A stretch of 64,000 nucleotides of DNA from Calorimonas adulescens (GCF_008274215.1 NZ_VTPS01000006.1:62001-126000), one strand, 5' to 3'; shown: positions 1,018 through 25,964, counted from the stretch's first letter. Program-made: numbers and translations. Notes: a model not told the origin generated them from the letters alone.

Positions 1018-1399
1018 CCTGAAGTTTCACTGCTATTTTTGTCTATTTGATTACCCTTCCCTTTCATATGGGGTACCTTCCTGTCTGGGCAATCCTGTAT
1101 TCCATTGACAGCGTTTAATATTTACTATAAATGAAAGTATAAGCCTGGCGTTTGTTAAAGCACACGGCACGCCAAAAACAGTGCGATCACTCTTGATGCC
1201 ACAACTACTTTAAAAACTTTAATTATAAACTTAGACGTAAGCATGTTTTTGCTGTTTTATTTCAAATGCACTGAAGGTAATCGTTATAGTAAACGATATT
1301 CAAGTAAAATATATGATAATTCAAGTAAATTTTGCTTGATAAGTAAACTAGGCCAATTTATAATTTATCTTGAGAAAACGATTTTCAGAGGTGCTAATC
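1018..1399 (+). promoter_or_regulatory. LacI gene control region: promoter and candidate operators
   Basis: This is the 380-bp gap between divergent genes. A good sigma-A promoter, TTGATA-17-TATAAT, spans 1336-1364. Around it are the direct repeat TTCAAGTAAA (1299-1308 and 1320-1329, 21 bp apart), a related GATAAGTAAA at 1338-1347, the inverted repeat TCAAG-N9-CTTGA (1321-1339) overlapping the -35, and ATCGTT-N6-AACGAT (1280-1297). The placement suggests autoregulation by the adjacent LacI protein. The left part (1018-1270) is AT-rich and shows only a TGGCGT...ACGCCA inverted repeat near 1147-1173 and an isolated TTGACA at 1105. Confidence 0.55.
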
Positions 1400-2449: not shown

Positions 2450-2524
2450 GGCTTTTGATAAAGGACAAGAGAACAACATTTAAGTTGTTTTCTAAATAAA
2501 ATTAATTAGATGGAGGTGCACTTT

Positions 2525-3850
2525 ATGAAAAAGATAGCTAAAGGCATTCTGGTTTTTGTCCTTGTCGCATCACTTTTATCAGGGTGTGGGACTAGCACAA
2601 AATCAGAAAATGAGGCATCACAGACGAGTAAGGAAGGGGTTGTGACAATCGATTTTTGGGCTGCTCCAAATCCTCCGCAACAAACTTTCTGGAAACAAAT
2701 GGCTGAAGAGTTCTCAAAGGTCAACCCAAATATCAAAGTAAATGTAAGCCCAATGCCAGAGACACCATCATCTGAGGCTGGTATACAGGCGGCTCTAGCA
2801 GGTGGCAATGCTCCTACAATTTCTGAAAACATTTCCCGTGGTTTTGCGGCACAACTTGTGGATAGCAAAGCTTTAGTTCCCCTTGATTCAATGGATGGTT
2901 GGAATGACATTATAAAGAGCAGAAATATGGAAGATACAATCCAGGCATGGAAATTTGCAGATGGTCATCAATATGTGTTGCCTATATATTCAAACGCTAT
3001 GCTCTTTGCATGGAGGATTGATATTTTAAAACAATTAGGATATGATGAACCCCCAAAAACTTATAGTCAAATTATTGAATTAGGGAAAAAACTAAGAGAA
3101 AAATATCCAGATAAATATTTATGGGCAAATCCTGATTTAATTGACTCTACCTGGTGGAAAAGATGGTTTGACTTCTTTATGCTTTATGATGCGGCATCAA
3201 ACGGTAATAAATTTATAGAAGGCAATACGCTTGTTGCCGATGATAAAGCTGGTGTGGCTACACTTAAATTCCTTGAAGATATGGCAAAAAATAAACTTTT
3301 ATTGACACAAGTGGCGACGGATCCCTTTGAAACGGCGGTGAGTGTTTGGACGACAATTGGACCTTGGACATTTGGCACATGGAAAGACAAATATCCGGAA
3401 CTTAAATTGAATGAAACTTATGTACTTACACCGCCTCCGGTACCGGATGGAATGAGTACAAACAATGTAAAGACATTTGCTGACACAAAGGGTCTTGTAA
3501 TATATGCACAATCTAGCCTTGAAAAGCAAGAAGCAGCGATGGAGTTCATAAAATGGGTATATTCTAATCCTGAAAACGATATGAAATGGTTTGAAATTAC
3601 AAACCTTCCGCCTGCAAGGGATGATGTTAATACAAACGAACAATTTAAGGCATATCTGAAAGATCATCCAGAGCTTCAACTTTATGCGGAATCGATACCT
3701 AATGCTATTCCGCCGTTTGATAATGTTAAATTTAATGATATCCAGACATTAATTGGACAGAAGGCTGTAAATCCAGTTGTTGCAGGACAAATAGATGCTC
3801 AAAAAGCCTGGGATGATATGAAACAAGCTGTTCAGGGGGTTCTTAAATGA
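2525..3850 (+). CDS. ABC transporter sugar-binding lipoprotein
   Basis: This is a 441-residue family 1 extracellular solute-binding protein. The N-terminus has a lysine-rich start, a hydrophobic stretch and a lipobox LLSGC, so it should be processed to a membrane-anchored lipoprotein. The mature part has the WAAPNPPQQTFWKQMAEEF opening typical of oligosaccharide binders. The ATG at 2525 is used because GGAGGTG precedes it; the ATG at 2510 lies upstream of that RBS. It overlaps the first permease by 4 bp (ATGA), and context points to a beta-mannoside ligand. Confidence 0.85.
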   Translation: MKKIAKGILVFVLVASLLSGCGTSTKSENEASQTSKEGVVTIDFWAAPNPPQQTFWKQMAEEFSKVNPNIKVNVSPMPETPSSEAGIQAALAGGNAPTISENISRGFAAQLVDSKALVPLDSMDGWNDIIKSRNMEDTIQAWKFADGHQYVLPIYSNAMLFAWRIDILKQLGYDEPPKTYSQIIELGKKLREKYPDKYLWANPDLIDSTWWKRWFDFFMLYDAASNGNKFIEGNTLVADDKAGVATLKFLEDMAKNKLLLTQVATDPFETAVSVWTTIGPWTFGTWKDKYPELKLNETYVLTPPPVPDGMSTNNVKTFADTKGLVIYAQSSLEKQEAAMEFIKWVYSNPENDMKWFEITNLPPARDDVNTNEQFKAYLKDHPELQLYAESIPNAIPPFDNVKFNDIQTLIGQKAVNPVVAGQIDAQKAWDDMKQAVQGVLK

Positions 3851-4725
3851 AAAGAAGGCAGGAAAAATTGGGTTGGCTTTTTGCCAGCCCATACCTCTTA
3901 TATAGTTTAATATTTTTTGTAATTCCACTCTTTGGAGCGTTATTTTTATCTTTTACTAACTGGAATCTCATTTCGCCTCAATATGAGAATGTTGGCTTTT
4001 TAAACTTTGTTAAAGCTGTAAAAAGCCAAGAAGTTAGGGCTGCGTTTTTTGTGACTTATAAATTTATGGCAATGTTTGTGCCCATTGTATTAATTGGTTC
4101 TTTGGCAATTTCCCTTATTATAAACAGCTTGCCGAGGTTTAAAAGTCTGTTTTCTGTAGGATATTTTTTGCCTTACCTTGCTTCTGGCGTTGCCACCTCA
4201 ATAGTTGTAAGAGGTATTTTGTCATATAACAGTGCTTTAAATGTATGGCTGAGGAACACGTGGGATTTGAATATTGATTGGCTCGGCTCATCAACGCTTG
4301 CCCCATTGATTATTTCTGTCATGATAGCGTGGAAATTTATGGGGTATTATTCGCTCATACTGACATCAGGTTTAGAGAGTATACCTACCGAAGTATATGA
4401 AGCTGCTGCCATAGATGGTGCAACAGGTTGGGTGAGATTCTTTAAAATTACGCTGCCGCTTTTATACCCAGCCATGTTTACTGTAACTATACTGGCAGTT
4501 GGGCTTGTATTTGGTATTTTTACAGAACCGTATGTGTTGACAGGAGGGGGTCCGGGACTTTCAACAAATACCTGGCAGATGGAAATATATAACCAGGCTT
4601 TTAGTAAGCTAAACGCAGGTTATGGCTCTGCAATTGCAATTATTGATTCTGTGGTGACATTTATTACTATTTTAGTAGTTCGTAAACTATTGGAAGTTTG
4701 GGGTGAAAAATATGGTTGGGACTAA
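3847..4725 (+). CDS. ABC sugar transporter permease (MalF type)
   Basis: This 292-residue integral membrane protein has six predicted helices and the EAA loop EAAAIDGATGWVRFFKITLPLL (residues about 180-201) that contacts the ATPase. It starts in the ATGA overlap with the binding-protein gene and overlaps the next permease, so the three are co-translated. It is the MalF/UgpA-type partner. No ATPase gene is in the cluster, so a shared MsmK-type ATPase encoded elsewhere probably powers the importer, as is common in Firmicutes. Confidence 0.88.
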   Translation: MKRRQEKLGWLFASPYLLYSLIFFVIPLFGALFLSFTNWNLISPQYENVGFLNFVKAVKSQEVRAAFFVTYKFMAMFVPIVLIGSLAISLIINSLPRFKSLFSVGYFLPYLASGVATSIVVRGILSYNSALNVWLRNTWDLNIDWLGSSTLAPLIISVMIAWKFMGYYSLILTSGLESIPTEVYEAAAIDGATGWVRFFKITLPLLYPAMFTVTILAVGLVFGIFTEPYVLTGGGPGLSTNTWQMEIYNQAFSKLNAGYGSAIAIIDSVVTFITILVVRKLLEVWGEKYGWD

Positions 4726-5548
4726 AAATAAAAAATTGCAAACTGTATTATTATACACATTAGCGATTATTGTTTTGATTATAATGATGTACCCATATGT
4801 ATATATGATATTAAATTCACTTGCGCCATGGGATCAAGTTGATAGAAGAATAATACCAACAGGACTTACCTTGAAATCTTATATATGGCTTCTGTTTGGG
4901 GGAACCGATGTTATGCCGCGACCATGGCTTAGAGCTTTTGCTAATAGTATGATTGTAACTGTTTCTTCTACTTTTTTAATGATGGTCACAGCGATATTAG
5001 TAGCCTATGCCTTATCAAAATTGGTTTTTAAAGGTAAAAAAACAATAAACAATGTTATTATGTTTCAAATGTTTTATCCCTCAATTATTCTTTTAATACC
5101 TACATTTATACTAGTGAGGAAGTTGGGATTGTATGATACCTATTGGGGCATGATAATTCCAAAATCTGTAAGCTTGTGGGCAATATTTATGTATACAAAT
5201 TTTTTTAAAGCGATACCAAATGAGTTAATTGAAGCCGCAAAGATAGATGGTGCAAATGAGATAAAAATACTTTTTAAAATCGTTTTGCCAATGTCAAAAT
5301 CAATTACCACAGTTATTTTTCTGTTTTTGTTTATGGAAAGGTGGGTAGAGCTTTTATGGGATATGCTTGTTGTGCATAATCAGAACCTTCTTACTCTGAA
5401 TGTTATGCTGGCACAGATGTTTGGGCCATATGGTGCATATCCAGGTCCGATGTATGCTGCATCTGTAATTTTGACACTTCCAATACTTATTTTGTTTATA
5501 ATTTTTAGCAAGAATTTTAAAGAAGGCATACAGTTTGTCTTAAAATGA
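4712..5548 (+). CDS. ABC sugar transporter permease (MalG type)
   Basis: This 278-residue CUT1-family permease has hydrophobic helices and the EAA motif EAAKIDGANEIKILFKIVLPM (about residues 175-195). I prefer the ATG at 4712, which has GGGGTG six bases upstream; an in-frame GTG at 4703 lies within that RBS. It overlaps the end of the first permease gene. With the binding lipoprotein it forms a three-component importer lacking an adjacent ATPase. Confidence 0.88.
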   Translation: MVGTKNKKLQTVLLYTLAIIVLIIMMYPYVYMILNSLAPWDQVDRRIIPTGLTLKSYIWLLFGGTDVMPRPWLRAFANSMIVTVSSTFLMMVTAILVAYALSKLVFKGKKTINNVIMFQMFYPSIILLIPTFILVRKLGLYDTYWGMIIPKSVSLWAIFMYTNFFKAIPNELIEAAKIDGANEIKILFKIVLPMSKSITTVIFLFLFMERWVELLWDMLVVHNQNLLTLNVMLAQMFGPYGAYPGPMYAASVILTLPILILFIIFSKNFKEGIQFVLK

Positions 5549-5566
5549 TGTGACGGAGGTGGGGTT

Positions 5567-7444
5567 ATGACAAAATTTACTGATGAATTTGTAATAGGAG
5601 CTAACTACTGGCCAAGAAATCATGGTATCGAGATGTGGAAAGAGTGGAACTATGATGAGATAAAAAGTGAATTTATTGAGGCGAAAAGATTAGGTATTAA
5701 TGTAATGAGAATAAATCTTTTTTGGGAGGATTTTCAGCCAAAGCCTGATGTAATATCAGAAAAAGCGATAGAGAAATTTGATGAGCTCATTAAAATATGC
5801 CATGAAGTGGATATGAAAATTGCTCCCACTTTTTTTGTGGGGCACATGAGCGGTGAGAATTGGGATGTGCCGTGGAGAGAAGGTAGGAATATATACAGTG
5901 ATTCATTTATGTTGAGGTACCAACTTAAGCTGGTGCGATTTTTTACAGAAAGGTATAAAGACGAACCTGCTATTTTGTTTTGGGACCTTTCAAATGAGCC
6001 AGATAATTATGTAAAAGCAGAGTCAAGACATGATGCCTGGTTGTGGAACTATGTCTTATCGAATGAGATAAAAAAATACGACAAAAATCATCCCGTAACA
6101 CTTGGAATGCACCAGGCATCTCTTCTTACCGATAATAATTTTTATCCTGAAGACATGCAAGAAGGCAACGATTTTCTGTGTATGCACGCATATCCGATTT
6201 ACACAGACGCATGTATAGATCCTGTAAATTCTATAAGAAGCACTTACATAGCGCCATTCGCCTCTAAACTTACTCAGGCTATGGGCGGCAAAAAAGTGTT
6301 ACTCGAAGAATTTGGTGCAACCACCCTCATGATGTCCGAAAACATAGAAGGGGATTATTACAGGGTAGTGCTTTACAGTCTCCTTGCGAATGAATCGATA
6401 GGTGCAATAGCGTGGTGTTTTGGAGATTTTTCTGTTGGTGAAAGGCTTCCGTATAATTCCACGCCCTTTGAAACGCAATTTGGGATAACAGCAGCTGATG
6501 GCAGAGTTAAAAAAGCAGGACTTGAAATAAAAGCTTTTTCTGATTTTATAGATAAGATTGAATATAGACGGCTTAATCCCAGAAAATGTGATGCTGCAAT
6601 AATCGTTCCAGACAAATATTACAATGCGTTATTTGTGGGAGATGACTATACTCCAGAAAGAAATTTTAGAGTCCTTTTAAATAGCTTTATACTTGCAAAA
6701 GAAGCAGGTATAGACGTTGAATTGGTAAGAGCTGATGGGGACTTTAACAGGTATAAAATGCTTATCTTGCCTTCCGCTTATAGAAAAGGGCATTTAAATT
6801 ATGATCAGTGGCTTAAGGTTATGGGATTTATCAAAAATGGCGGCACTTTATATACATCATATGACGGAATATCTATAGAAGGTTTTGATGAGGTATTTGG
6901 AGTTAAAACGCAATACTCTATGGTGCCCAAAAATAAGACAGTATCAATGCATTGTGAGGAACTTGAGATTGATTTAAATTACAGGGCTCTTAAATTTAAT
7001 AAAAGGCTTTTTGTAAAACCGACAACAGGTCATGTAATTGCCGATGATGCTGAGGGACATCCAGCAGTGGTTGTAAATAGATATGGCAATGGGAAAACAA
7101 TTCTTGTCACGTATCCTATTGAACTTTATTTAAGCTATATGCCAGATGTATATAAAGCTGACAAGTCTTATTTGATCTATAGATATGCCAAGGAGTTAAG
7201 TGGAATAAGGTACGATGTAAGTGTAGACTCCCCCTATATTGAGGTTAAGGAGTTTGATTATGAAGATAAAACCCTTATAATTTTTATAAACCATGAAGAT
7301 ATGGATATAAAAAGTAAAATAAACTTAAAAGATGTGAAAGAAAACAGAAATAATGAGAGAATACAAGATTTGATTACCGGAAAGCAGATTGATTTAGAAA
7401 GTTTTACTGTAAATGCGAATGGAGCAGTTGCAATCTTAATATAA
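5567..7444 (+). CDS. GH5-like clan A glycoside hydrolase with C-terminal domains
   Basis: The protein has 625 residues. Residues about 1-330 form a clan GH-A (beta/alpha)8 barrel with the acid/base glutamate in LSNEPDNY (E144) and the likely nucleophile in VLLEEFGATT (E248). A second part (about 335-530) resembles the beta-galactosidase trimerisation fold (LILPSAYRKGHLNYDQWLKVM), followed by a short beta domain. There is no signal peptide, so it acts inside the cell on imported oligosaccharides. A strong GGAGGTGGGG RBS precedes the ATG. Between an importer and two GH130 genes it is best read as a beta-mannosidase or mannanase-like enzyme; the exact linkage is inference. Confidence 0.75.
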   Translation: MTKFTDEFVIGANYWPRNHGIEMWKEWNYDEIKSEFIEAKRLGINVMRINLFWEDFQPKPDVISEKAIEKFDELIKICHEVDMKIAPTFFVGHMSGENWDVPWREGRNIYSDSFMLRYQLKLVRFFTERYKDEPAILFWDLSNEPDNYVKAESRHDAWLWNYVLSNEIKKYDKNHPVTLGMHQASLLTDNNFYPEDMQEGNDFLCMHAYPIYTDACIDPVNSIRSTYIAPFASKLTQAMGGKKVLLEEFGATTLMMSENIEGDYYRVVLYSLLANESIGAIAWCFGDFSVGERLPYNSTPFETQFGITAADGRVKKAGLEIKAFSDFIDKIEYRRLNPRKCDAAIIVPDKYYNALFVGDDYTPERNFRVLLNSFILAKEAGIDVELVRADGDFNRYKMLILPSAYRKGHLNYDQWLKVMGFIKNGGTLYTSYDGISIEGFDEVFGVKTQYSMVPKNKTVSMHCEELEIDLNYRALKFNKRLFVKPTTGHVIADDAEGHPAVVVNRYGNGKTILVTYPIELYLSYMPDVYKADKSYLIYRYAKELSGIRYDVSVDSPYIEVKEFDYEDKTLIIFINHEDMDIKSKINLKDVKENRNNERIQDLITGKQIDLESFTVNANGAVAILI

Positions 7445-7457
7445 GGGGGGTATAAAT

Positions 7458-8366
7458 ATGTTCAGGCTGAAGAGGCTCAGTGATAATCCTGTATTGTTAC
7501 CAATAAAAGAACATGAGTGGGAGAGGGAGGCAGTTTTTAATGCGGCGGTAATTTATGAGAATAATAAATTCCATTTGTTTTACAGGGCTTCTAATAATAA
7601 GTTTATTCTAAATACAGAGAAGCCAGAAAAAAATTATAAATTTGTATCCTCAATTGGGTATGCTGTAAGCGAGGATGGTATCAATTTTAAAAGATTTGAC
7701 CAGCCTGTTTTAAAGGGAGAAACCCCACAAGAGGCGTGGGGAGTAGAGGATCCGCGAATTACAAGAATTGACAATAAGTATTATATTCTCTACACAGGTT
7801 TTGGGGGAAGGAGCTGGTTGGATTTTAGGATATGTATGGCGTGGTCCGATGATTTAAAGAATTGGGAGGGACACAGGGTAGTTCTTGATGAGTCCAATAA
7901 AGATGCGGCGCTTTTGCCCGAAAAAATAAATGGCAGGTATGTGCTTTTTCATAGAAGGATGCCTGACATTTGGGTTGCATATTCTGATGATTTGACTGTT
8001 TGGTATGATCATAGAATTATAATGTCTCCAATACCTGGTACATGGGAATCAAAAAAGATTGGTATAGCAGGGCCTCCTGTAAAAATGGAGGATGGGTGGC
8101 TTCTTATATACCACGGAGTTGATGAAAATGACGTGTATAGATTAGGAGCAGCTCTTTTGGATTTAAATGACCCGTCAAGGGTTATTGCAAGACAGAGAGA
8201 GGCTATTTTGGAGCCTGAGCTCGATTGGGAAATAAATGGGCTTGTGCCTAATGTGGTATTCAGTTGTGGCACGGTAGAGGTAAATGGTGTGTATTATGTT
8301 TATTACGGTGCGGCAGATACCGTAATTGGTGTAGCAGTCATTGAAAAAGAAAAAGTAAAATTTTAA
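7458..8366 (+). CDS. GH130 beta-mannoside phosphorylase (first copy)
   Basis: This 302-residue enzyme has the five-bladed propeller signature of family GH130. It starts MFRLKRLSDNPVLLP, has the catalytic-acid segment GVEDPRITRI (D98), the HRRMPDIW block and LIYHGVDEND, whose Arg and His residues usually bind phosphate. Their presence argues for a phosphorylase that releases alpha-mannose 1-phosphate, rather than a GH130 hydrolase. It is cytoplasmic and 13 bp downstream of the glycosidase gene. Tandem GH130 pairs are known from Thermoanaerobacter as 1,2-beta-oligomannan and beta-1,2-mannobiose phosphorylases, an attractive but unproven match. Confidence 0.88.
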   Translation: MFRLKRLSDNPVLLPIKEHEWEREAVFNAAVIYENNKFHLFYRASNNKFILNTEKPEKNYKFVSSIGYAVSEDGINFKRFDQPVLKGETPQEAWGVEDPRITRIDNKYYILYTGFGGRSWLDFRICMAWSDDLKNWEGHRVVLDESNKDAALLPEKINGRYVLFHRRMPDIWVAYSDDLTVWYDHRIIMSPIPGTWESKKIGIAGPPVKMEDGWLLIYHGVDENDVYRLGAALLDLNDPSRVIARQREAILEPELDWEINGLVPNVVFSCGTVEVNGVYYVYYGAADTVIGVAVIEKEKVKF

Positions 8367-8380
8367 GAAGGGTGGATAAA

Positions 8381-9259
8381 GTGATCAAACTGAAGAGATT
8401 ATCGGATAAGCCAGTGCTTGTTCCTAAAGACAAAGAAGGGCATGAGTGGGAAAAAGCAGCGGTTTTTAATACGGCAGCTATTTATGACAATGGTTTGTTT
8501 CACCTTATTTACAGAGCAACTGACGTGGGACCTCATGCTAAATATGGTGAATATGTCTCAAGATTGGGATATGCAGTAAGTAAAGATGGGATAAATTTTA
8601 TGAGGTTGGACAAGCCTATTTTTACTAATGAAACACCTCAGGAGGCGAAGGGGATAGAGGACCCTCGAATAGTGAAAATTGATGGTATTTATTATATGAT
8701 GTATGTAGCCTTTGGTGGTAGATTCGATGGCGATTACAGGATATGTTTGGCGACTTCTACGAATTTGATTGACTGGGAGAGACATGGCGTTGTGTTGGAT
8801 GAACCCAATAAGGACGCATCCTTGTTTCCCGAAAAGATTAACGGGAAATATGTGATGTTACATAGAAGGTATCCCAATATCTGGATAGCATTTTCTGATG
8901 ATTTAAAGAGCTGGTATGGCCATAAGCCTATAATAAAGCCTATCCCGGGAACATGGGAGAGTGCAAGAGTGGGTATTGGAGGACCGCCGGTTAAGACGAA
9001 GGATGGTTGGTTTTTAATATACCATGCAGCTGACGAGGACAATGTGTATAGGCTTGGGGTGGCTCTTCTTGACTTGGAAGACCCATCAAAGGTTATCTCA
9101 AGACAGAAAGAGCCTATCTTAGAGCCTGAGCTGGATTGGGAGAGGGAAGGGCACATTCCTAATGTTGTGTTTAGCTGTGGCAATGCGGTTAAAGGCGATA
9201 CTATTTACGTTTATTATGGCGGTGCGGATACAGTTATAGGCGGCGCAGTCCTGGTATAA
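8381..9259 (+). CDS. GH130 beta-mannoside phosphorylase (second copy)
   Basis: A 292-residue paralogue of the preceding gene, colinear over its whole length (MIKLKRLSDKPVLVP, GIEDPRIVKI with D94, HRRYPNIW, LIYHAADEDN). The GTG at 8381 is chosen because AAGAAGGGTGG ends six bases upstream and this start aligns exactly with the first copy; the GTG at 8372 is inside the RBS. The HAAD in place of HGVD and the different acceptor-side loop after residue 45 suggest a different chain-length or acceptor preference. It is the last gene of the sugar operon. Confidence 0.88.
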   Translation: MIKLKRLSDKPVLVPKDKEGHEWEKAAVFNTAAIYDNGLFHLIYRATDVGPHAKYGEYVSRLGYAVSKDGINFMRLDKPIFTNETPQEAKGIEDPRIVKIDGIYYMMYVAFGGRFDGDYRICLATSTNLIDWERHGVVLDEPNKDASLFPEKINGKYVMLHRRYPNIWIAFSDDLKSWYGHKPIIKPIPGTWESARVGIGGPPVKTKDGWFLIYHAADEDNVYRLGVALLDLEDPSKVISRQKEPILEPELDWEREGHIPNVVFSCGNAVKGDTIYVYYGGADTVIGGAVLV

Positions 9260-15464: not shown

Positions 15465-15654
15465 ACATCTCATGTATGGCCTCTACGGGACAGTTATACA
15501 TGGCCTGGCCTGCCAGGTCTTCAAACTCCGCCGGTATATCTGTATCAATGGCTAAGGCCATGGTGCCGTCCTCATTCCAGTGGAATACCTCTGGGCATGT
15601 ATATATGCAGTCGCCGCAGCCTATGCAGCTTTCTTCATCTACATACAGTCTCAT
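15463..15654 (-). CDS. Single-cluster [4Fe-4S] ferredoxin
   Basis: A 63-residue ferredoxin with CIGCGDCIYTCP (residues 11-22) and a distal NCPVEAI cysteine (about 54-60). These give the CxxCxxC...CP ligand set of one [4Fe-4S] cluster, with Asp-rich loops between. The usual second cluster motif is absent, as in the Bacillus/Thermotoga single-cluster type. An AGGAGG RBS precedes ATG 15654. It is an electron carrier for anaerobic metabolism and is monocistronic. Confidence 0.92.
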   Translation of the reverse strand: MRLYVDEESCIGCGDCIYTCPEVFHWNEDGTMALAIDTDIPAEFEDLAGQAMYNCPVEAIHEM

Positions 15655-15827: not shown

Positions 15828-18800
15828 ATGGACATTCAGTACATAAGGCAGATGGAAGACCGGTTTTATAACAAGATTGATGAGGCTATGAGCGAGATAC
15901 AGGATATGGACTATATTGACACAGTGGTTGGCATTCCTTTCTATAATGAAAAGGAAACCTTGAGGAATGTAATAAAGACAGCAGAGGAAGGTCTCAAAGG
16001 CTTTCCTGACATGAAAAAACTAATAGTATGCGCTGGAGATCCTGCAGGCAGGGAGGCACTGGAGGCCATAAAAGGGATTGACTGCGAGGTACCGTGCCTC
16101 TTTTTCCTTATGGAGTCCGGTATAAATGGTAGGGGTTTCAGCATAAGGGCTATAATGGAGATAGCAAAGAGGCTGGAGGCGGATGTTATCCTTCTTGAAG
16201 CAGACCTGAAAAGGGAAGGGAAATGGGGTTTTAAGCCCTCATGGCTGAAAAGGCTTATATATCCCCTCAATGAGGGGTATGATATGGTCTTTACGAGTTT
16301 TAGAAGGCATTACTTTGAAGATACCACCGGCGACCTCTTTGTAAAGCCAATCCTTGAGGCATTGTATGGATGTCAATTGAAGGACCCCTTGAGCGGAATA
16401 TATGGAATTTCCCATGATATGGTGGAGGCATACTGCGCAGAGGCCGGGCATTGGTATGAATACACGGGTGGATACGGTATAGACCCGTGGATGGTAACCA
16501 GGGCAGTCATCTGGGACAAGAAATTATGTGAGGTGAGCCTCGGGGCGAAACTTACTCCCCCATCAACAGGAAAGAGGGCCTATGTTTTCAAAGAGGTGGC
16601 AAGGGCAATTTTTGAGTGTCTCAAGGACGATCAGGATTACTGGCTAAAATCACATATGATATTGAAGCGTCCTGACATATATGGGCTTGAAGACAGAGAC
16701 AGGCCTATGGAGATATCCTGCCGCCTCACTGACTTTGTGCAGGCGTTTCAGTCAGGGTATGAGAGGTACAGGGTTATATATGAAAAGATACTCCCTGAAG
16801 GTTTAAAAAGGCAGATCGAAGAGGTATATAGCCTTCCGTATAAAAATTTCAGGTTTAATGAGGACCTATGGGCACAGATTATATATCAGTTTTTGCAGGT
16901 CTATTGTTTTAAGAGCAATGTACCCCAGGAGGATATACTGGATGCTTTTACCATTATGTACGAAGGGCGTATAGCCGGATATATAAAACAGGTGAGAGGG
17001 TTTCGCGATTATCTTATAGATATCAAAGGAATTGATATGGATGAGCTTACCTATAAAAAGACAGGGGACTATTATGCCTGTCAGGTGGAGACTCTTCTGT
17101 CTATGAAGGAAAGCTTTGTAAAGACCTGGATAGAGAAGACCATGGAGGTACAACCGGTCATAACACCACTTGACTATCTTGAATTTGTGCCGGGCGTGCC
17201 CATTGTATTGCCCAAGGAACTGAAAGGATTGGGCGGCAGTATCATAAGGACCAGTGAGGTGTTCAGGAGGGTTGAGAAAAAATATTCTAATGATTTTTAT
17301 GATTTTGTACACAACATGTTAAAGATACCGGAGGGCTTATCTCCGTCGGATGTGTGCAATGGAGTAAAGGAATTTATGTTGCATCTTGAAGATGCTGTGA
17401 ACAAGGTATTCCCGGGGGACCTATATTCCAGCAGCGGTGTTGCGGATGTGGTGAAGGGGATATTTAATCTATTGCCTCATGGCAAGGTCCTGATAGTAAG
17501 GCCAGAGATTTTGAGGAAACTGCTCTATGAGTTCCCCCCGTTAAATCTTATGCTCCGCGTGGGCTATAAGAATGTTACTGAACTATTAAACAACATGAAC
17601 CCACGATATGCCTTGACTCTTGCCAATATAACGGAAGAGAGGCAGTATGTAGATAAGGTTACACTGTGGCTGGAGGATAACCTGAGGCCTGACAGCATGG
17701 AAGAGGTTGACATAGAACCTATCGTACTCAGCAGAGAAGTGATACCAGATATTCCAGATATGAGGGATATTACAATATTGAACAAGATAACGGGTATGAT
17801 TGCTGTGAGCAGCCTGAGCAAGGGTATGGGTGGTGAATATCCCAAACTCAGGTATTTTACTCATATTGCAAAGAATATAGTGGAGGCGGAACACTATTCA
17901 TACATATGGAAGTTATACGCCAGAGAACGCAGGGGCTTTGGCATCAAGGTGGCAAACTCTATCCTCGGGCACCACGGCAGGGACATATTTTCAGCTCACA
18001 ATATGTTCGAAAACTGGCACCAGAGGGAGATGGTGGTCAGATTTAAAAGGCTGGCAGAGGGTCTTGAGTCAAAAGGAAACAAAGATGAGGCAAAAGCCTT
18101 TTATCTAATGGCAGAGGGATATGGGCTGTCGCTTACCTTGAATGATGGGACTTTTGTACCGTGCTCGGCATGGACATGGGCCAGTTACAGTTTCAGGGGT
18201 GGCAAAGGCATACCAACCCCACTTTCCCTGTATGTTGAGAGAGATTGGTTTAACAATGACCTTTTAGTAGAGATTTATAAGGAGATGGGCTACAGGCCCG
18301 GTGAGATACTCGAGGAGGTATACCAGCTTATTGGTGAAGGTAAGGAGAGTGACGACCTTATAAACATTATACTTGGTGTGAAGCCTCATGCCGATGCGGT
18401 AATGGTACAGGACGTGGAAAACTGGCCTGCAGCCGGTTACCTTTTACGCTATGACGGCAATCCCATTTTAAAACCCCTGCCGGACCACTGGTGGGAATCC
18501 AGGTATGTGCTGAACGCTGCAACCTTACGGATAAAGGACAGGGTATATATCCTATACAGGGCATTTGGGAAGGACAGCATATCCAGGATTGGCCTGGCCA
18601 TATCCGATGGGTACAATATAGTGGAGAGGCTACCTGAACCAGTTTTCTACCCTAAAAATAGCACTGAGAAAGATGGCTGTGAGGACCCGCGCGCGGTAAT
18701 CATAAACGATAAAATATATATGATGTACACCGCCTATGATGGAGTGGTGGCGCAGGTTGCTGCCGCCTCCATAAGCATAGATGATTTTTTAAACAGGGAC

Positions 18801-19391
18801 TTTGACAGGTGGGAGAGACTTGGCCTGGCCTTTCCAAACCTCTGGGATAAGGATGCTATACTTTTCCCTGAAAAAATTAACGGCAAATATGTCATGTACC
18901 ACAGGATAGAGCCCAGTATGTGGGTCTCATACTCAGACGAACTTAAGTTTCCATGGCCCAAGGATGGGCATAAAATAATAATCGGTCCACGGTCAGGAAT
19001 GATGTGGGACTCACTGAAGATAGGTGCAGGAACCCAGCCGTTGAAGACCAGGTATGGATGGCTGCTTATATATCATGGGGTAGACGATAATCTAATATAC
19101 AGGCTGGGCGTTATACTGGTAGACTTAAAAGACCCGGGAAGGCTGCTCTATCGTTCACCAAACCCAATCCTGTCGCCAGAGAAGGAGTACGAAACAGGTG
19201 ACAGGTCTACGGCATGGGTGCCCAATGTGGTTTTCACCTGCGGCGCAGTGCCTGCCGAGGATAAGGAGATGCTGGACGCTGAAGATGAGATACTGGTATA
19301 TTATGGAGCTGCAGATACCTACATTTGTGTAGCCCATGCAAAGGTTGGCGAGTTAATACCGGAGGAGGTCAGAAAAAGGATAGACAGATAA
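15828..19391 (+). CDS. Glycosyltransferase-GH130 fusion protein, probable mannoside synthase/phosphorylase
   Basis: 1187 residues. Residues about 25-290 form a GT-A glycosyltransferase (VVGIPFYNEKETL, a metal-site candidate in LLEADLKRE, then GDLFVKPILEALYG and DPLSGIYGIS), resembling the mannosylglycerate/glucosylglycerate synthase type. About 300-860 is a mostly helical region I do not recognise. Residues about 864-1187 are a full GH130 domain with CEDPRAVII (D953 as likely acid), YHRIEPSMW and LLIYHGVDDN, so phosphate-binding residues appear kept. It starts at ATG 15828 after GAGG and lacks a signal peptide, so it is cytoplasmic. It is convergent with GDP-mannose-type genes. A protein that both adds and phosphorolyses mannosyl units is inference. 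Confidence 0.75.
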   Translation: MDIQYIRQMEDRFYNKIDEAMSEIQDMDYIDTVVGIPFYNEKETLRNVIKTAEEGLKGFPDMKKLIVCAGDPAGREALEAIKGIDCEVPCLFFLMESGINGRGFSIRAIMEIAKRLEADVILLEADLKREGKWGFKPSWLKRLIYPLNEGYDMVFTSFRRHYFEDTTGDLFVKPILEALYGCQLKDPLSGIYGISHDMVEAYCAEAGHWYEYTGGYGIDPWMVTRAVIWDKKLCEVSLGAKLTPPSTGKRAYVFKEVARAIFECLKDDQDYWLKSHMILKRPDIYGLEDRDRPMEISCRLTDFVQAFQSGYERYRVIYEKILPEGLKRQIEEVYSLPYKNFRFNEDLWAQIIYQFLQVYCFKSNVPQEDILDAFTIMYEGRIAGYIKQVRGFRDYLIDIKGIDMDELTYKKTGDYYACQVETLLSMKESFVKTWIEKTMEVQPVITPLDYLEFVPGVPIVLPKELKGLGGSIIRTSEVFRRVEKKYSNDFYDFVHNMLKIPEGLSPSDVCNGVKEFMLHLEDAVNKVFPGDLYSSSGVADVVKGIFNLLPHGKVLIVRPEILRKLLYEFPPLNLMLRVGYKNVTELLNNMNPRYALTLANITEERQYVDKVTLWLEDNLRPDSMEEVDIEPIVLSREVIPDIPDMRDITILNKITGMIAVSSLSKGMGGEYPKLRYFTHIAKNIVEAEHYSYIWKLYARERRGFGIKVANSILGHHGRDIFSAHNMFENWHQREMVVRFKRLAEGLESKGNKDEAKAFYLMAEGYGLSLTLNDGTFVPCSAWTWASYSFRGGKGIPTPLSLYVERDWFNNDLLVEIYKEMGYRPGEILEEVYQLIGEGKESDDLINIILGVKPHADAVMVQDVENWPAAGYLLRYDGNPILKPLPDHWWESRYVLNAATLRIKDRVYILYRAFGKDSISRIGLAISDGYNIVERLPEPVFYPKNSTEKDGCEDPRAVIINDKIYMMYTAYDGVVAQVAAASISIDDFLNRDFDRWERLGLAFPNLWDKDAILFPEKINGKYVMYHRIEPSMWVSYSDELKFPWPKDGHKIIIGPRSGMMWDSLKIGAGTQPLKTRYGWLLIYHGVDDNLIYRLGVILVDLKDPGRLLYRSPNPILSPEKEYETGDRSTAWVPNVVFTCGAVPAEDKEMLDAEDEILVYYGAADTYICVAHAKVGELIPEEVRKRIDR

Positions 19392-19581: not shown

Positions 19582-19602
19582 AAAGGGAGGGAACCTCCCT
19601 TT
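19582..19602. terminator. Bidirectional terminator
   Basis: AAAGGGAGG-GAA-CCTCCCTTT with A/T flanks lies between the convergent GT-GH130 and phosphohexomutase genes and overlaps the mutase stop codon. The 190 bp before it show no gene. Confidence 0.75.
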
Positions 19603-20959
19603 AAAATTTCAACGGTACAGCTTTTCTAAGTTCGTCCAGAATCTTTTCCAGGCCCTCCTCTGTCTTTGCCTCTGCCCTCAAAATCACCTCAGGACCTGTA
19701 TTGGATGCTCTGGCTAAGCACCATCCGTCGTATATATACGCCCTCACCCCGTCTACATCCACAACGGAGCACCCTTTTTCAATGAAATATCTTTTGGCGT
19801 TTTCAACTATGGTGAATTTTTCTTTGTCGTCGCTCTCTGCCCTTATCTCCGGAGTAGACACATAGGAAGGAACATCCGAGAGCAGTTCTGACAGCTTTTT
19901 GCCGCTTTTTGAAATTATCCTCAAGAGCCTGCCTGCCGAATAAAGCGCATCATCAAACCCATAGTACTCGTCAGCAAAGAACATATGTCCTGACATCTCA
20001 CCGGTGAAAGGCGAATCCAGTTCCCGCATCTTCGCCTTTATAAGGGAATGTCCTGTCTTATAGAAGAACGGCTTCCCTCCAAGGCGTTTAATTTCGTCTA
20101 CAAGCGCTTCTGAGCACTTTACCTCCACAATACAGTCTATACCCGGATATTTTGGCAGGATCTCCCTCCAAAAGAGGGACATCATAGTATCGCCCCATAT
20201 TATGTTTCCCTTATCGTCCACAACTCCTATCCGGTCGCCGTCTCCGTCAAAACCTATACCCAGGTCTGCTCCTGTCTTTAAGACAACGTCCCTCAATGCC
20301 TTGAGGTTTTCTTCTTTTACAGGGTCAGGGAAATGATTTGGGAAATTGGGGTCGGATTCAGAGTATATGGGTATAACATTGCATCCCCATAGTTCCAGTA
20401 CCTGGGGGCCTATAATAGAAGTAGTGCCGTTTCCGCAGTCAACTGCCACCTTGAGTTTTCTTTCCAGTTTTATCTTTTCCTTCAGCATATCAGCATAGCC
20501 GAATATGGGATAGGAATAGCTTATATCTCCCCTGGGGGCATCCATAAAATCGTCGTTTTCAATCATGCGGCAGATATCCTGCAGGTCATCGCCATACAGG
20601 GTAGCCGGGCCAAAGCATACTTTAAACCCGTTATACTGAGGAGGGTTATGACTTGCTGTTATCATCAGTCCGGGGTTTACACTGTAAAGTATTCTGGAAT
20701 AATAAAACATTGGGGTTGTTAAGAGCCCCACATTCAATACATTTGTGCCCGTACTTAAGAGACCATCTATAACTGCATCCATGAGGTCTAATGAAGAAGC
20801 CCTGTTGTCGTGCCCAACAAGGCATACATCCTCATTTCTCCTCTTGAGGTATGTCCCAAAGGCCTTTCCTATAAGATATGCTGTATTCCTGTTCAGTTCT
20901 TCAGGGACAACTCCCCTTATATCATACTGCCGGAATATAGTAGGGTTTATCTTTGCCAT
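19601..20959 (-). CDS. Phosphomannomutase/phosphoglucomutase
   Basis: 452 residues of the alpha-D-phosphohexomutase superfamily. It has the phosphoserine loop TASHNPPQYNGFK (about residues 98-110), the metal loop GFDGDGDRIG (about 238-247), the sugar-binding GEMSGHMFF (about 318-326) and the phosphate-binding RASNTGPEVILRAE near the C-terminus. It interconverts mannose 6-P (or glucose 6-P) and the 1-phosphate. A GGAGGAGG RBS precedes ATG 20959. It is the last gene of the nucleotidyltransferase operon and overlaps the preceding gene by 38 bp. It could also take up mannose 1-phosphate made by GH130 phosphorylases. Confidence 0.92.
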   Translation of the reverse strand: MAKINPTIFRQYDIRGVVPEELNRNTAYLIGKAFGTYLKRRNEDVCLVGHDNRASSLDLMDAVIDGLLSTGTNVLNVGLLTTPMFYYSRILYSVNPGLMITASHNPPQYNGFKVCFGPATLYGDDLQDICRMIENDDFMDAPRGDISYSYPIFGYADMLKEKIKLERKLKVAVDCGNGTTSIIGPQVLELWGCNVIPIYSESDPNFPNHFPDPVKEENLKALRDVVLKTGADLGIGFDGDGDRIGVVDDKGNIIWGDTMMSLFWREILPKYPGIDCIVEVKCSEALVDEIKRLGGKPFFYKTGHSLIKAKMRELDSPFTGEMSGHMFFADEYYGFDDALYSAGRLLRIISKSGKKLSELLSDVPSYVSTPEIRAESDDKEKFTIVENAKRYFIEKGCSVVDVDGVRAYIYDGWCLARASNTGPEVILRAEAKTEEGLEKILDELRKAVPLKF

Positions 20960-21983
20960 GTATTACCTCCTCCCTTTCTTTTAGTATCGCATTCATCATT
21001 TGATAAGTCAAGAGGAAGCTTACCAGCGCCTCTGCACCCTGATTAGGATTCAAGCCTTCTGGCACCAGGGCGTCATGACACCCTCCCGAATTTTCATTAT
21101 ATAGATTTAATCTGTTTATGTTTTTCCCCCAGTACCACTCATAGGAAAGGATTGCTTTTGACAGATACTCTCTCTTTCCCGTGGCAGTGTATCCTTCGAG
21201 GCAGGCCAAGGTAATTGATGCCGCATCCACAGGCTGCTGGTCAAATGGTGGTATAACACCGTTTCTCTGCCACCACCCCCTATTGCCTACAATGGACAGG
21301 TACCCGTTTTTAAAAAGCGAATCTGTTAAAAACCCCAGGGACTCCTCAGCAACATTAAGCGAGTTCCTGTCGCTGGAGATTTTATAGTAAGAGAATAAGG
21401 AGTGGGGCAATACTGCATTGCAGTAAGTAAGCCATTCCTCAAACCATTTCCAGGTATCGGTCCTGTTATCTGCATAGTTTTTCTTCAGATAGGAGGCCAT
21501 GTCGCCTGCCACCTTATAGAGGTTGTCATAGCTATACCCGTTTGTTATCAAATATATCAGGCCGATAAGTGAGTATGCTACAGCCCTCAAGGACTTCATC
21601 CTTGATATTACAGGCAATGCCCTGCTTATTATGTCTTTTGACTGTTTCTTTATGCTATCATGAGTATCGTCACTGCATAGGACATAACAACACGCCAGAA
21701 ATGCACGCCCTATGCTGTCTTCAGAATCAATGGTTGGAAGAAATGTATCAGCTACCTTGAGGTTGATAAAACTTCCGTCCGGACGCTGAGCACTTTTTAT
21801 AAAGTCCAGATATGTTTTGGCGAATCCTGCATCATCGTCCTCCATATTAATAGCAACAAGGAGAGCCCTGGCGTTATCATCCACTGTATACCCGCTCTCC
21901 TTTAAAGGTTCATCATGCCTTGAAAACTGTATTATACCTGTTTTATCAGTCATCCTTCTAAGGTGCCTGTAAGACACTCCCAT
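20922..21983 (-). CDS. (alpha/alpha)6-type carbohydrate-active protein, function unknown
   Basis: About 353 residues without signal peptide. Repeated helix-rich units with conserved acidic/aromatic motifs (SGYTVDDNARAL, RPDGSFINL, DTWKWFEEWLTYCNAVLPHSL, DQQPVDAASITL, GGCHDAL, NQGAEALVSFL) fit an (alpha/alpha)6 barrel glycosidase, phosphorylase or epimerase fold. I do not recognise a named family. The ATG at 21983 is preferred (GAGGGGG seven bases upstream); a GTG at 22001 is also open. It overlaps the GT4 gene by 26 bp, showing tight coupling. Possible roles are trimming or priming of the mannose-containing product. Confidence 0.6.
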   Translation of the reverse strand: MGVSYRHLRRMTDKTGIIQFSRHDEPLKESGYTVDDNARALLVAINMEDDDAGFAKTYLDFIKSAQRPDGSFINLKVADTFLPTIDSEDSIGRAFLACCYVLCSDDTHDSIKKQSKDIISRALPVISRMKSLRAVAYSLIGLIYLITNGYSYDNLYKVAGDMASYLKKNYADNRTDTWKWFEEWLTYCNAVLPHSLFSYYKISSDRNSLNVAEESLGFLTDSLFKNGYLSIVGNRGWWQRNGVIPPFDQQPVDAASITLACLEGYTATGKREYLSKAILSYEWYWGKNINRLNLYNENSGGCHDALVPEGLNPNQGAEALVSFLLTYQMMNAILKEREEVIHGKDKPYYIPAV

Positions 21984-23133
21984 ACCCATTCCCCCTCGCA
22001 CTGTTTTGAATTACGAGTCCCATAAGATTTATATACTGTTTTGCCACACTGGTCCATGTCATGGTTTTGCCAAGCTTGGACGCCCTTTCCTCCAGGCTGT
22101 GTTTTAGCGTCGGATTATCTATTATGTTCTCTATAAGTGTGGCAAGTTCCATATAGTTATTGCTGCTCTTTGCTATAAGGCCCCTGCCATTACCAAGTAT
22201 CTCCAGGGCATACTCGTAAGGGGTTGACACTATAGCTCTTCCACAACCCACAGCATAGGTTAATGTACCGCTAACGGCCTGGTTTTTATCAGGATAAGGG
22301 GTCATATACACATCTGTCATATACAGATAGTCACCAAGTTCGTCCAGGGATAGATAGTGATTGACAAATTGGACATTATCTGTCAGGTGCATATGCTCAA
22401 CCAGGTCTATCAGCGACTCTCTGTATGTCTCACCGAACTTTTTAACCAGGGAAGGATGGGTTTCACCCAGTACAAGATATAGTATTTCGGGATGTCTTGA
22501 TGCCACTTCCCCTATAGCTTTGATGCCATTTTCGATACCCTTGCCAGGCCCTATAAGACCGAAAGTGGAAACTATAGTCCTTTTGCTGTATCCATACATC
22601 GATTTTAACTGCTCTCTGTTTTTCTGCTTAAAACTGGGAACACCGTGGGGTATTACATAAATTTTGTCTTTAGGGACTCCATAGATATCCTCCAAGAGGC
22701 TTGCTGACCTTCCAGTCATACAGGCAACAGCGGCTGCTGCGCTGCCGAGTCCCCTGAGTATCCATTTCTGTCTAAAGTTAGGGGATGGCAGAACAGTATG
22801 TGTGGTGAGGATAAAAGGCTTTCTCAGGTGGGCAGCAAAGTCCAGGACATATTTCCCATCAAGCCCACCAAATATCCCATACTCGTGTTCCACTATTACC
22901 ACATCTATAAAGGAATCGTTCACGAAATGAGCAGCCTTGATGAACTCATCCCTCTCATCTTGATTAATTTCGAATATAACCTCAGGTGGGTAGTTATAAC
23001 TGGCTCCGCTATCTGTGATGGCAAGTAGTTTCACATTTTTGCCCATCTTGACGAAATTGTCTCTCAAGTCCTTTGAAAATGATGCAATGCCGCATTCTCT
23101 TGGTGGATAAGTGCTTAAAATGGCTATATTCAT
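21958..23133 (-). CDS. GT4-family glycosyltransferase
   Basis: 391 residues with the GT-B layout: N-terminal MNIAILSTYPPRECGIASFSKDL acceptor domain, then VSTFGLIGPGKGIENGIKAI and the donor-binding PYPDKNQAVSGTLTYAVGCGRAIVSTPYEYALEIL, the E-x7-E-type region of retaining GT4 enzymes. The ATG at 23133 follows AAGGAAGGG; a longer frame starting at TTG 23160 overlaps the upstream stop. Cytoplasmic or peripheral. Encoded between the nucleotidyltransferase and the (alpha/alpha)6 protein, it probably uses the nucleotide sugar made by its neighbour. Confidence 0.88.
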   Translation of the reverse strand: MNIAILSTYPPRECGIASFSKDLRDNFVKMGKNVKLLAITDSGASYNYPPEVIFEINQDERDEFIKAAHFVNDSFIDVVIVEHEYGIFGGLDGKYVLDFAAHLRKPFILTTHTVLPSPNFRQKWILRGLGSAAAAVACMTGRSASLLEDIYGVPKDKIYVIPHGVPSFKQKNREQLKSMYGYSKRTIVSTFGLIGPGKGIENGIKAIGEVASRHPEILYLVLGETHPSLVKKFGETYRESLIDLVEHMHLTDNVQFVNHYLSLDELGDYLYMTDVYMTPYPDKNQAVSGTLTYAVGCGRAIVSTPYEYALEILGNGRGLIAKSSNNYMELATLIENIIDNPTLKHSLEERASKLGKTMTWTSVAKQYINLMGLVIQNSARGNGYGSVLQAP

Positions 23134-23149
23134 TTGCATCCCTTCCTTT

Positions 23150-24172
23150 TTAATACGCAATCACACCATAAGACACGTCTTTGTTATCTCCAATGGTACA
23201 GTTGATACCTATGATGGTATTGCTCAATTTTGAACCACTGCCTATCTTACACCCTTCCCATATGATCGAATTCCTTATATAGCTACCCGGCCCGATCTCA
23301 ATATTGTTGCCGATAACAGCCCTGGGACCTATTATCACATCATTGCCTATATAACAGTTATCCCCAATCGCTATTGGGGGAATCAATTTTGCTGTGGGGC
23401 TTATATAGGAGTTTTTACCTATAACTATGCGGTTTTTATAATCCATCTCTATAAATGGATAAGTAAACAGACCATCCAGTATGCTGTTGTGCAGCTCCAA
23501 ATACTTATGCGGCGTACCTATGTCAATCCAGTAGTTGTTATTTTTATATGCGTACATCTTAACGCCAGCCGATAATAGGCCTGGATAAACCTCTTTTTCT
23601 ACAGAAACCTCACGTCCCGCAGGTATAAAATCAAGGACATCCCTCTCAAACACGTATATACCAGCATTGATAAAGTTTGTAGTTATCTCTTCAGGCCTTG
23701 GTTTTTCCTTAAATGCAGTTATCCGGCCATCATTGTCCGTTTCCACAAGACCGTATGCACTTGGATTATCAACCCTGGTAAGGGCAATGGTCACCCTTGC
23801 TCCTGATGCCATATGATAGTCTATCAGATCTCTAAGGTTGATGTCGGTAATTATATCGGAGTTGAATATCAGGAATGTATCATCCAAATACCTCTCTGCA
23901 TTCTTTATAGCTCCGCCTGTACCCAGCGGGCTCTCCTCAATACAATAGTATATCTTTACACCAAATCTACTGCCGTCTTTAAAGTAATTCATGATCTGTT
24001 CAGGCTGATAGCACAGACTCATGACTATCTCATCTATGCCATAGCCTTTAATATAGTTTATGGTTCTCTCCAAAAGAGGCTTGTTGAGTACTGGGACCAT
24101 TGGCTTTGGTATGGAATGAGTAAGAGGATACAGCCTGGTACCCTTTCCTCCGGCAAGTAAGAGTGCCTTCAT
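23150..24172 (-). CDS. Sugar-1-phosphate nucleotidyltransferase (probable mannose-1-P guanylyltransferase)
   Basis: 340 residues. An N-terminal nucleotidyltransferase domain (about 1-230: MKALLLAGGKGTRLYPLTHS, KPMVPVLNKPLLERTI, FNSDII) is joined to C-terminal hexapeptide repeats forming a left-handed beta-helix (about 250-340: IGDNCYIGNDVIIGPRAVIG). This is the two-domain GMPP/GlmU-like layout used for GDP-mannose or related nucleotide sugars. ATG 24172 follows AAGGAGGTGG, and a longer frame to 24268 lacks an RBS. It is first in an operon with a GT4 enzyme and phosphohexomutase, supporting GDP-mannose, but UDP- or dTDP-sugar cannot be excluded. Confidence 0.82.
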   Translation of the reverse strand: MKALLLAGGKGTRLYPLTHSIPKPMVPVLNKPLLERTINYIKGYGIDEIVMSLCYQPEQIMNYFKDGSRFGVKIYYCIEESPLGTGGAIKNAERYLDDTFLIFNSDIITDINLRDLIDYHMASGARVTIALTRVDNPSAYGLVETDNDGRITAFKEKPRPEEITTNFINAGIYVFERDVLDFIPAGREVSVEKEVYPGLLSAGVKMYAYKNNNYWIDIGTPHKYLELHNSILDGLFTYPFIEMDYKNRIVIGKNSYISPTAKLIPPIAIGDNCYIGNDVIIGPRAVIGNNIEIGPGSYIRNSIIWEGCKIGSGSKLSNTIIGINCTIGDNKDVSYGVIAY

Positions 24173-24542
24173 TAAACCACCTCCTTGAAAAATTATCCAA
24201 TTTACAACTCTATTGTATACATGAGTGTGTCTGTTTGTCAAACCTGATTTTTGTCCCTTTTTGTACAAAAATGCGTAATATTATTGTATATATCATTGTG
24301 ATATATATTTTTTTAAACAAATTAGTATATATCATTTAAATATACTGTTGTTTACTAATAATCTACGTGCACACTTATTATTATATTTAATGTCCCTGTT
24401 CTTTATACCTTATAACAGGACTCTTTGCTATTCAGTTAAATTGTCTTGTAATCAAAATTTAATATTCCGTTAACCATTTTTTAACCGAATTACCATCAGG
24501 CCTGTGGTATAATCAAATTACAATTGGCAGAAAGGGGTCTGT
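24173..24542. promoter_or_regulatory. Divergent promoter region with 11-bp-spaced TTAA repeats
   Basis: Leftward, TTGACA-18-TACAAT (24241-24212) serves the nucleotidyltransferase operon. Rightward, TATAAT at 24508-24513 lacks a good -35 but is preceded by TTAATA (24459), TTAACC (24470) and TTAACC (24481), each 11 bp apart. That spacing and hexamer resemble Gram-positive PhoP boxes, so the deacetylase gene may be activated by a PhoP-like regulator. The middle is very AT-rich without other signals. Confidence 0.5.
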
Positions 24543-25964
24543 ATGAAAAGATATATCTCTGAAGTTTTTATTTTGTTTGTTTTTATTTTCGTTATGGCGT
24601 TGCCAGAAAGCGCATGGGGTGCTGGAAAAACTTATGTACCTGTCCTCATGTATCACAATATAATAGATGGCGCAATAAAGCCCTCGGAGGCCGGTGTGAC
24701 AGTCAACTATGAAAGGTTCATGGAGCAGATGGAGTATTTAAAGCTGGCAGGTTACAATACCATAAGTGTGGATGATTATATAGGTTTTATGGAGGGAAAC
24801 AAACCGTTGCCTCCGAACCCGATAATGATAACCTTTGATGATGGTTACGAGAGCAATTATAAATATGCCTATCCAATTTTAAAGAAACTGGGTATGAGGG
24901 CTGTTATAAACGTGATTGTATCAGAGACGAAAGGGGAGCCCAACTATCATTATTGGGACCCGACCCATCTCACTTGGGAAGAGATGAAAGAGATAAGTGA
25001 TTCCGGTGTGATTGATATTGAGAGTCATACCTATGACCTTCACTACTATGCCTCAAATGGCAAAAAAAAGATACCGGCAGCTTCAGGCCAGATAGAGATT
25101 AATGGAAAGCTGGAGAGCTTTGATGAGTACACCACAAGGGTAAAGAATGACTTTAAAAAATCAAAGGATATGATTGAAAAAAATGTGGGGAAGAGGGTGA
25201 AGGTGCTGTCATATCCCTATGGTGTTGGCAACAGCACCACTAAGAAACTGGCAAGAGAGGTGGGTTACGAGGCCATGTTTACCATAAAGGAAGGGGTGAT
25301 GAGGCAGGGCGACGACATCATGTCCGGCAAAAGGATTAAGGTAAAGGGCACTGAAACTGGTTTTGACATTGTAAGGAATATTTACAGGGCTGCCGGAGTT
25401 AAAGGAAATGTACCTTTTTATGACCTTGAAAAACACTGGGCCAGCAACGATATAATGGAGATGATGCTAAAGGGGTACATGAAAGGGTACCCCGATAAGA
25501 CATTCAGACCAGATAGTCCTGTCACCAGAGCAGAGATGGCTACTATGGTTTCCTCTGTTTTTGGCCTCAAGCCTGATGGTAAGGCTCTGCCGTTTAATGA
25601 TGTGATGAAAAACGCATGGTATTATGTGCCTGTCAGTTCCTGCTACGCTGATGGTATAATAGGTTTTTATGGTAACAGTTTTGGGCCGGATATAAAGGCC
25701 ACACGCGAGGAGGTAGTATCTGTACTTTCACCATTTATAAAAAGTGGACAGTCTGCAGACCTCTCCATATATAAGGATACTGATGAGATTTCACCATTTG
25801 CTGTCCATGCTATGGAGAAGGCTGTTGCTGCAGGTATAATCAAAGGGAAAGGAGAGGGGCGTCTCTCACCGAAGGACGATGTAACCAGGGCAGAGCTTGC
25901 TGTTATGATTGAGAGGGTATTAAACCAGCAAAGTTATGATAACAGGCAGTCTCTTTGGGAATAA
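24543..25964 (+). CDS. SLH-anchored polysaccharide deacetylase
   Basis: 473 residues. Signal peptide (1-26) is followed by a NodB-type carbohydrate esterase 4 domain (about 30-270). It has VLMYHNI, the metal-binding ITFDDGYESN (DD pair) and IESHTYDLHYY (SHTxxxH), and YPYGVGN near the end. Three SLH modules follow (about 295-465: HWASNDIMEMMLKGYMKGYPDKTFRPD and two similar units). It should be held to the wall by its SLH domains and deacetylate peptidoglycan or a wall polysaccharide. ATG 24543 follows AAAGGGG. The possible PhoP-type promoter upstream would fit cell-wall remodelling under phosphate limitation. Confidence 0.9.
   Translation: MKRYISEVFILFVFIFVMALPESAWGAGKTYVPVLMYHNIIDGAIKPSEAGVTVNYERFMEQMEYLKLAGYNTISVDDYIGFMEGNKPLPPNPIMITFDDGYESNYKYAYPILKKLGMRAVINVIVSETKGEPNYHYWDPTHLTWEEMKEISDSGVIDIESHTYDLHYYASNGKKKIPAASGQIEINGKLESFDEYTTRVKNDFKKSKDMIEKNVGKRVKVLSYPYGVGNSTTKKLAREVGYEAMFTIKEGVMRQGDDIMSGKRIKVKGTETGFDIVRNIYRAAGVKGNVPFYDLEKHWASNDIMEMMLKGYMKGYPDKTFRPDSPVTRAEMATMVSSVFGLKPDGKALPFNDVMKNAWYYVPVSSCYADGIIGFYGNSFGPDIKATREEVVSVLSPFIKSGQSADLSIYKDTDEISPFAVHAMEKAVAAGIIKGKGEGRLSPKDDVTRAELAVMIERVLNQQSYDNRQSLWE

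Follow-up and report, generated by a model that had tools for sequence, protein, structure and literature searches.

The fused gene, its distribution and its neighbours

The window, the whole stretch of 64,000 nucleotides from Calorimonas adulescens that was analysed, contained a single uninterrupted ORF of 1187 aa on the plus strand (15828..19391). The start codon was ATG, and the sequence AGTGAGG a few bases upstream is a plausible ribosome-binding site. The encoded protein consists of a glycosyltransferase (GT) unit (aa 1-443), a middle domain (aa 444-870) and a GH130 domain (aa 871-1177), and no hydrophobic stretch suitable for spanning a membrane was found in it. Pfam recognised only the GH130 domain in the window protein (aa 891-1177). 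AF2 gave a weak model of the whole protein (pLDDT 67.8, pTM 0.46), too weak for the packing of the domains. A total of 53 homologues of near full length (1163-1250 aa) from 11 families of the phylum were collected. An assembly error, frameshift or chance joining as the source of the fusion was rejected because of these 53 conserved loci, and the original prediction of a GT-A transferase and GH130 in one polypeptide was borne out. The prediction had known of no bacterial counterpart, and no description of the three-part architecture was found in the open-access literature, a search with subscription journals largely outside it. Judged from sequence, the conserved fusion appears to be a new architecture for a known kind of enzyme.

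The scan of species genomes showed 16 loci in Tepidanaerobacter, Thermosediminibacter, Fervidicola, Thermovorax and related genome bins. Across the phylum, aa 1-870 were matched in 53 of the 399 sampled genomes, a count separate from that of the 53 collected homologues and equal to it by coincidence. Reading of the table showed that 48 of these genomes carried the fused type (48/399 sampled), four carried stand-alone GTs (G149, G181, G206 and G226) and one was marginal (G259). The GT unit plus middle domain without GH130 was not found among the sampled genomes; the exceptions, G215:C34 and G339:C125 among them, were short open frames and are taken to be contig ends. Six genomes (G061, G100, G190, G202, G299 and G331) carried two fused copies each, often of different subgroups. 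In the plasmid search, the sole match to the first 870 aa was a distant haloarchaeal GT, and matches to the remainder of the protein were limited to the GH130 part.

The fused gene faces, in convergent orientation, a series of overlapping minus-strand genes encoding a phosphomannomutase/phosphoglucomutase (19601..20959; PF02878-PF02880 and PF00408; PgmG-like), an unnamed conserved protein, c2 (20922..22001), a GT4-type glycosyltransferase of cluster c1 (21958..23160; PF00534 and PF13439) and a mannose-1-phosphate guanylyltransferase-like nucleotidyltransferase (23150..24268; PF00483; NF052502 E 3.7e-91, below its cut-off). Over the 53 loci the commonest neighbours were GT4 (36), c2 (30), phosphomannomutase (20) and guanylyltransferase (19). 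No Pfam or NCBIfam name was obtained for c2 (340-365 aa), which is probably an α/α-toroid based on a 7tem profile match (E 4.5e-09), the relation to α/α-toroid structures being weak. c2 was present in 43/48 genomes with the fusion and 50/351 without it (raw counts, shared ancestry included). In addition, at least 14 genomes lacking the fusion had a stand-alone GH130 gene within approximately 5 kb of c2 (including L105, L106, L108 and L111; others read from coordinates), which suggests that the fusion takes the position of GH130 in a wider set of genes. A GT4-c2 pair without an adjoining GH130 gene in a genome of the same class (L102) indicated that the module is commonly but not universally linked to GH130.

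Several variations of the neighbourhood were observed. GT4 and c2 were themselves fused in L080 and L078 (GT4 by Pfam; profile A5 placed c2 at the same positions, within open frames of 774 and 817 aa), and probably in further genomes too. A mannose-6-phosphate isomerase-type cupin was fused to GT4 at L057:12841-14208 (Pfam), and c2 at L065:5566-6993 carried an extra C-terminal stretch that appeared cupin-like by eye. In Thermosediminibacterales-type loci (L045-L053, L009 and L015), GT4, c2 and the fusion were followed on the same strand by FtsE/FtsX-like, M23 peptidase and CtpB-like genes; a link of these downstream genes with the cell envelope is possible. In the window, a small ferredoxin-like gene (MRLYVDEESCIGCGDCIYTCPEV...) was located just upstream of the fusion on the opposite strand (15469..15654, minus strand) and a PgaB-like polysaccharide deacetylase beside the mannose genes (24543..25964, plus strand).

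The window also contained two stand-alone GH130 genes of the β-1,2-mannobiose phosphorylase type on the plus strand, at 7458..8366 (NF052550 536.6 bits against a cut-off of 450) and 8372..9259 (517.1 bits, same cut-off), to which the fused GH130 domain was approximately 40% identical. The two genes stand in tandem in a region (1370-9259) with a LacI regulator, an ABC sugar-binding protein and permease and a GH42-like protein, and the region looks like an oligomannoside uptake operon. Tandem GH130 genes behind LacI and ABC genes suit oligomannan taken up from outside, and an internal product may thus be the substrate of the fused enzyme. Finally, the own genome was searched for glycogen genes: no synthase scored above cut-off and no phosphorylase was found, a result compatible with some other reserve but no evidence of one.

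The GH130 domain and the middle domain

The GH130 domain (18438..19358, plus strand) matched PF04041 with an E value of 2.9e-56 and 191.2 bits in the fused protein, compared to a gathering score of 26. Its nearest PDB sequences were 7FIP (Teth514_1789, a β-1,2-mannobiose phosphorylase; E 1.8e-57) and 9FJ8 (Teth514_1788, a β-1,2-oligomannan phosphorylase; E 1.8e-55), while the mannoside synthase Uhgb_MS was also among the matches (E 1.9e-34). Teth514_1788 and Teth514_1789 are proven β-1,2-mannoside phosphorylases, in which the Asn/Asp/Asp set serves mannose recognition (PMC4264767). In GH130 enzymes the Asp is catalytic, the equivalent of Lys199 of BT3780 gives β-1,2 specificity, and basic residues are replaced by Glu in the hydrolases (PMC4599007). 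Ten residues, N896, R911, E952, D953, R955, K1008, R1026, K1064, H1083 and D1163, were invariant in all 53 fused proteins. These included the catalytic D953 (18684..18686), aligned to the Teth514 enzymes with roles taken from PMC4599007 and PMC4264767, and N896 and D1163, the counterparts of the Asn and Asp that bind mannose at the -1 position. K1008 (18849..18851), the counterpart of Lys199 (PMC4599007), aligned with the KD motif of Teth514_1789 and Teth514_1788. R1026 (18903..18905), K1064 (19017..19019; a Lys/Arg position) and H1083 (19074..19076) were assigned by HMMER alignment to basic residues common to proven phosphorylases, as putative phosphate contacts, and were kept basic with no replacement by Glu. 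A hydrolase of the BT3780 type was therefore rejected.

Overall, the GH130 domain was the best conserved part of the protein, with a mean majority of 0.78 and 85/307 positions invariant, compared to a mean majority of 0.57 and 4/253 invariant positions for the GT-A core. The original prediction of a complete domain with its catalytic Asp and apparent phosphate-binding residues, the loss of which would have spoken against it, agreed with this pattern. Its residues suggest a functional phosphorylase, the probable substrates being β-1,2-mannosides. Its score against NF052550, the NCBIfam model of β-1,2-mannobiose phosphorylase, was 253.8 bits, below the cut-off of 450, so the substrate or linkage may differ. 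The fusion shares with Teth514_1788 and Teth514_1789 the GH130 domain, the Asn/Asp/Asp set, the Glu preceding the catalytic Asp, the β-1,2 Lys, and a gene cluster for GDP-mannose that includes guanylyltransferase and GT4 (PMC4264767). However, those enzymes are single-domain proteins of 300 aa with neither a GT unit nor a middle domain.

The middle domain (17157..18437, plus strand) showed no recognised family or fold, and its segment at aa 761-840 was highly conserved. No Pfam or NCBIfam family was found, and comparison with PDB sequences gave no match (best E 0.05). The AF2 model of aa 441-872 reached a pLDDT of 74.6 and a pTM of 0.77 but was built from 16 sequences only, and two Foldseek searches with it (PDB and viral) produced nothing below E 0.04, with every TM below 0.2. 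With Pfam, NCBIfam, PDB sequences and both Foldseek searches all blank, the domain as a known enzyme was rejected. On a model that draws on few sequences, it is predicted to be mostly helical and without a recognised relative. Approximately 560 residues of unrecognised helical sequence had been predicted, of which aa 444-870 stood as unrecognised, while the remainder was found to be a helical tail common to stand-alone GT81/GT78-like proteins.

The GT unit and its altered site

The GT unit (15828..17156, plus strand) consists of a GT-A core (approximately aa 28-280) and the helical tail, and is GT81/GT78-like with a non-canonical predicted active site. Pfam alone missed it in the window protein (PF00535 E 0.1). 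A profile of the unit with its stand-alone relatives matched structures of GpgS, the glucosyl-3-phosphoglycerate synthases (E 5e-07), and a Foldseek search of the whole-protein AF2 model against PDB gave mannosylglycerate synthase as the top match (E 2.8e-12, target TM 0.74). The stand-alone relatives L082-L084 (413-437 aa) aligned with the fusion to approximately aa 443, the last stretch by eye, which places the helical tail in the GT unit and leaves only aa 444-870 unexplained. The GT-A fold and the motif order were those of GT81 glucosyl-3-phosphoglycerate synthase and GT78 mannosylglycerate synthase, but the fusion differs from both in an altered DxD motif, the loss of the metal His and of the acid of the acceptor motif, and the extra fused domains.

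Published work on GpgS describes a DSD motif whose first Asp is paired with Lys114 and Glu232 and whose second Asp is the metal ligand; ribose is bound by Glu54, and His258 occupies the place of the metal ligand His217 of mannosylglycerate synthase (PMC2581804). Alignment to GpgS and the stand-alone relatives placed E124-A-D126 (16197..16205) at the DxD position in the window protein, with Glu as the first acid instead of Asp. Over the fused proteins, the first acid (D134-equivalent) was Glu in 29/53, Ala, Ser, Thr, Lys, Val or Pro in 23/53 and Asp in one, which is without the second Asp, so that a complete D-x-D was present in none (0/53). The second, metal-binding Asp was kept in 43/53 and lost in 10/53 on several branches, which takes approximately five changes on the GH130-domain tree. 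The metal-binding His after the last core strand was absent in 51/53, the window protein included; the deepest-branch members L071 and L074 still had a His in this region. The acid of the acceptor motif (PLSGE/GGD) was lost in 50/53 and the Glu232-equivalent was Asp in 35/53. The ribose-contact Glu (E41) was retained in 48/53, a basic residue stood at the place of Lys114 in 53/53, and the basic GR/KG motif was kept. The fusion persists in members with a broken GT site.

Three stand-alone relatives retained DSD, the His and an acidic acceptor motif. Two of the stand-alone GT81/GT78-like genes, L082:9412-10698 and L084:2880-4193, with intact DSD and His, adjoin LacI-type regulators, and the latter also lies beside ABC sugar-transporter genes.

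On these residues, the GT unit is placed with the retaining GT81/GT78 enzymes with its predicted donor and metal site altered. The pattern fits a unit whose transferase chemistry has decayed but which still has some binding function. Since the window protein keeps E-A-D and the ribose Glu, it may have residual transferase activity.

Possible function of the fused protein

The reading that we favour, with modest confidence and from sequence comparison, is that the protein works in the cytosol as a β-1,2-mannoside phosphorylase, is part of a GDP-mannose/GT4 module, and carries a captured non-canonical GT81/GT78-type unit and a middle domain of unrecognised fold. The GH130 domain would reversibly convert a β-mannosyl-(1,2)-mannoside and phosphate to α-Man-1-P. 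The guanylyltransferase would then convert the released Man-1-P to GDP-mannose for GT4, or alternatively the mutase would route it to Man-6-P and glycolysis. The GT unit would most likely bind a glycan or nucleotide sugar or act as a scaffold, and the middle domain, above all the segment 761-840, would most likely shape the substrate sites of GH130. The broader gene set of the fusion resembles a cluster for which Chiku et al. proposed that imported oligomannan is salvaged to GDP-mannose (PMC4264767). Against this reading stand the NF052550 score, the weak AF2 model of the full-length protein and the retention of E-A-D and the ribose Glu in the window protein; in addition, GT4 and GT81/GT78 suggest α-mannosides, and the source of a β-linked substrate is not accounted for. 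An extension that we consider unlikely would make the GT unit, binding a nucleotide sugar, a sensor or substrate-delivery arm, through which the protein would keep Man-1-P release in a bacterial β-mannoside reserve in step with the consumption of GDP-mannose; the middle domain would couple the two sites.

GH130 working in the building direction, adding β-mannosyl caps from α-Man-1-P onto a GT4-made α-mannoside, appears quite unlikely. Uhgb_MS, a mixed-linkage mannoside synthase (9EQQ) with a GH130-related sequence that uses α-Man-1-P, would be the model, as it extends α-1,2-mannobiose from this donor (PMC8950772) and came up among the sequence matches, and GT4 was the commonest neighbour of the fusion. 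However, Uhgb_MS is a single-domain protein and more distant in sequence, the fused GH130 being closer to Teth514_1788 and Teth514_1789, which are described as degrading or salvage enzymes. The phosphate level in cells also usually favours phosphorolysis.

The original prediction was a store-and-release cycle in one protein as in Leishmania mannogen, in which GDP-mannose serves the GT unit for the synthesis of a mannoside that GH130 then phosphorolyses. The resemblance of the GT fold to the GDP-mannose-using mannosylglycerate synthase, the ribose Glu kept in most members, E-A-D in the window protein and the missing glycogen genes of the own genome are in its favour. However, the metal His, the acceptor acid and in ten members the metal Asp are lost, and the fusion endures where the GT site is broken. 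GT81/GT78 enzymes are retaining (α-linking) and GH130 acts on β-linkages, and it is thus not obvious that the bond made by one domain would be the one broken by the other. As no member has an unaltered metal and donor site, and some have a broken one, synthesis of the mannoside by the same polypeptide was not supported, and we consider this cycle very unlikely. The likeness to GT108 enzymes that had been drawn was also not supported by sequence, as no GT108 enzyme, 6Q50 (MTP4) included, was among the PDB sequence matches of the GH130 part up to E 0.1, and membership of GT108 was rejected on this result. Leishmania GT108 shares the β-propeller mannoside phosphorylase logic and the make-and-break idea but performs both reactions in one domain and has no GT-A unit. 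If there is a make-and-release cycle, the operon as a whole is a more plausible place for it than one protein; it may run there because neighbouring enzymes take Man-1-P to GDP-mannose and to Man-6-P.

Production of a small compatible solute akin to mannosylglycerate or mannosylglucosylglycerate, with the GT unit retaining that role, is highly improbable: the unit is closest to the mannosylglycerate and glucosyl-3-phosphoglycerate synthases and several hosts are thermophiles, judged by their names, but the acceptor motif is altered and a β-mannoside phosphorylase has no role in such pathways.

Overall, favouring the phosphorylase reading, the analysis defined a conserved three-part family with a domain without a recognised fold and an apparently repurposed transferase unit. 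In anaerobic Bacillota, the fusion connects GDP-mannose genes with the phosphorolysis of β-mannosides, and it makes testable whether these bacteria hold an internal β-mannoside and whether the GT unit serves as a catalyst, a binder or a sensor.
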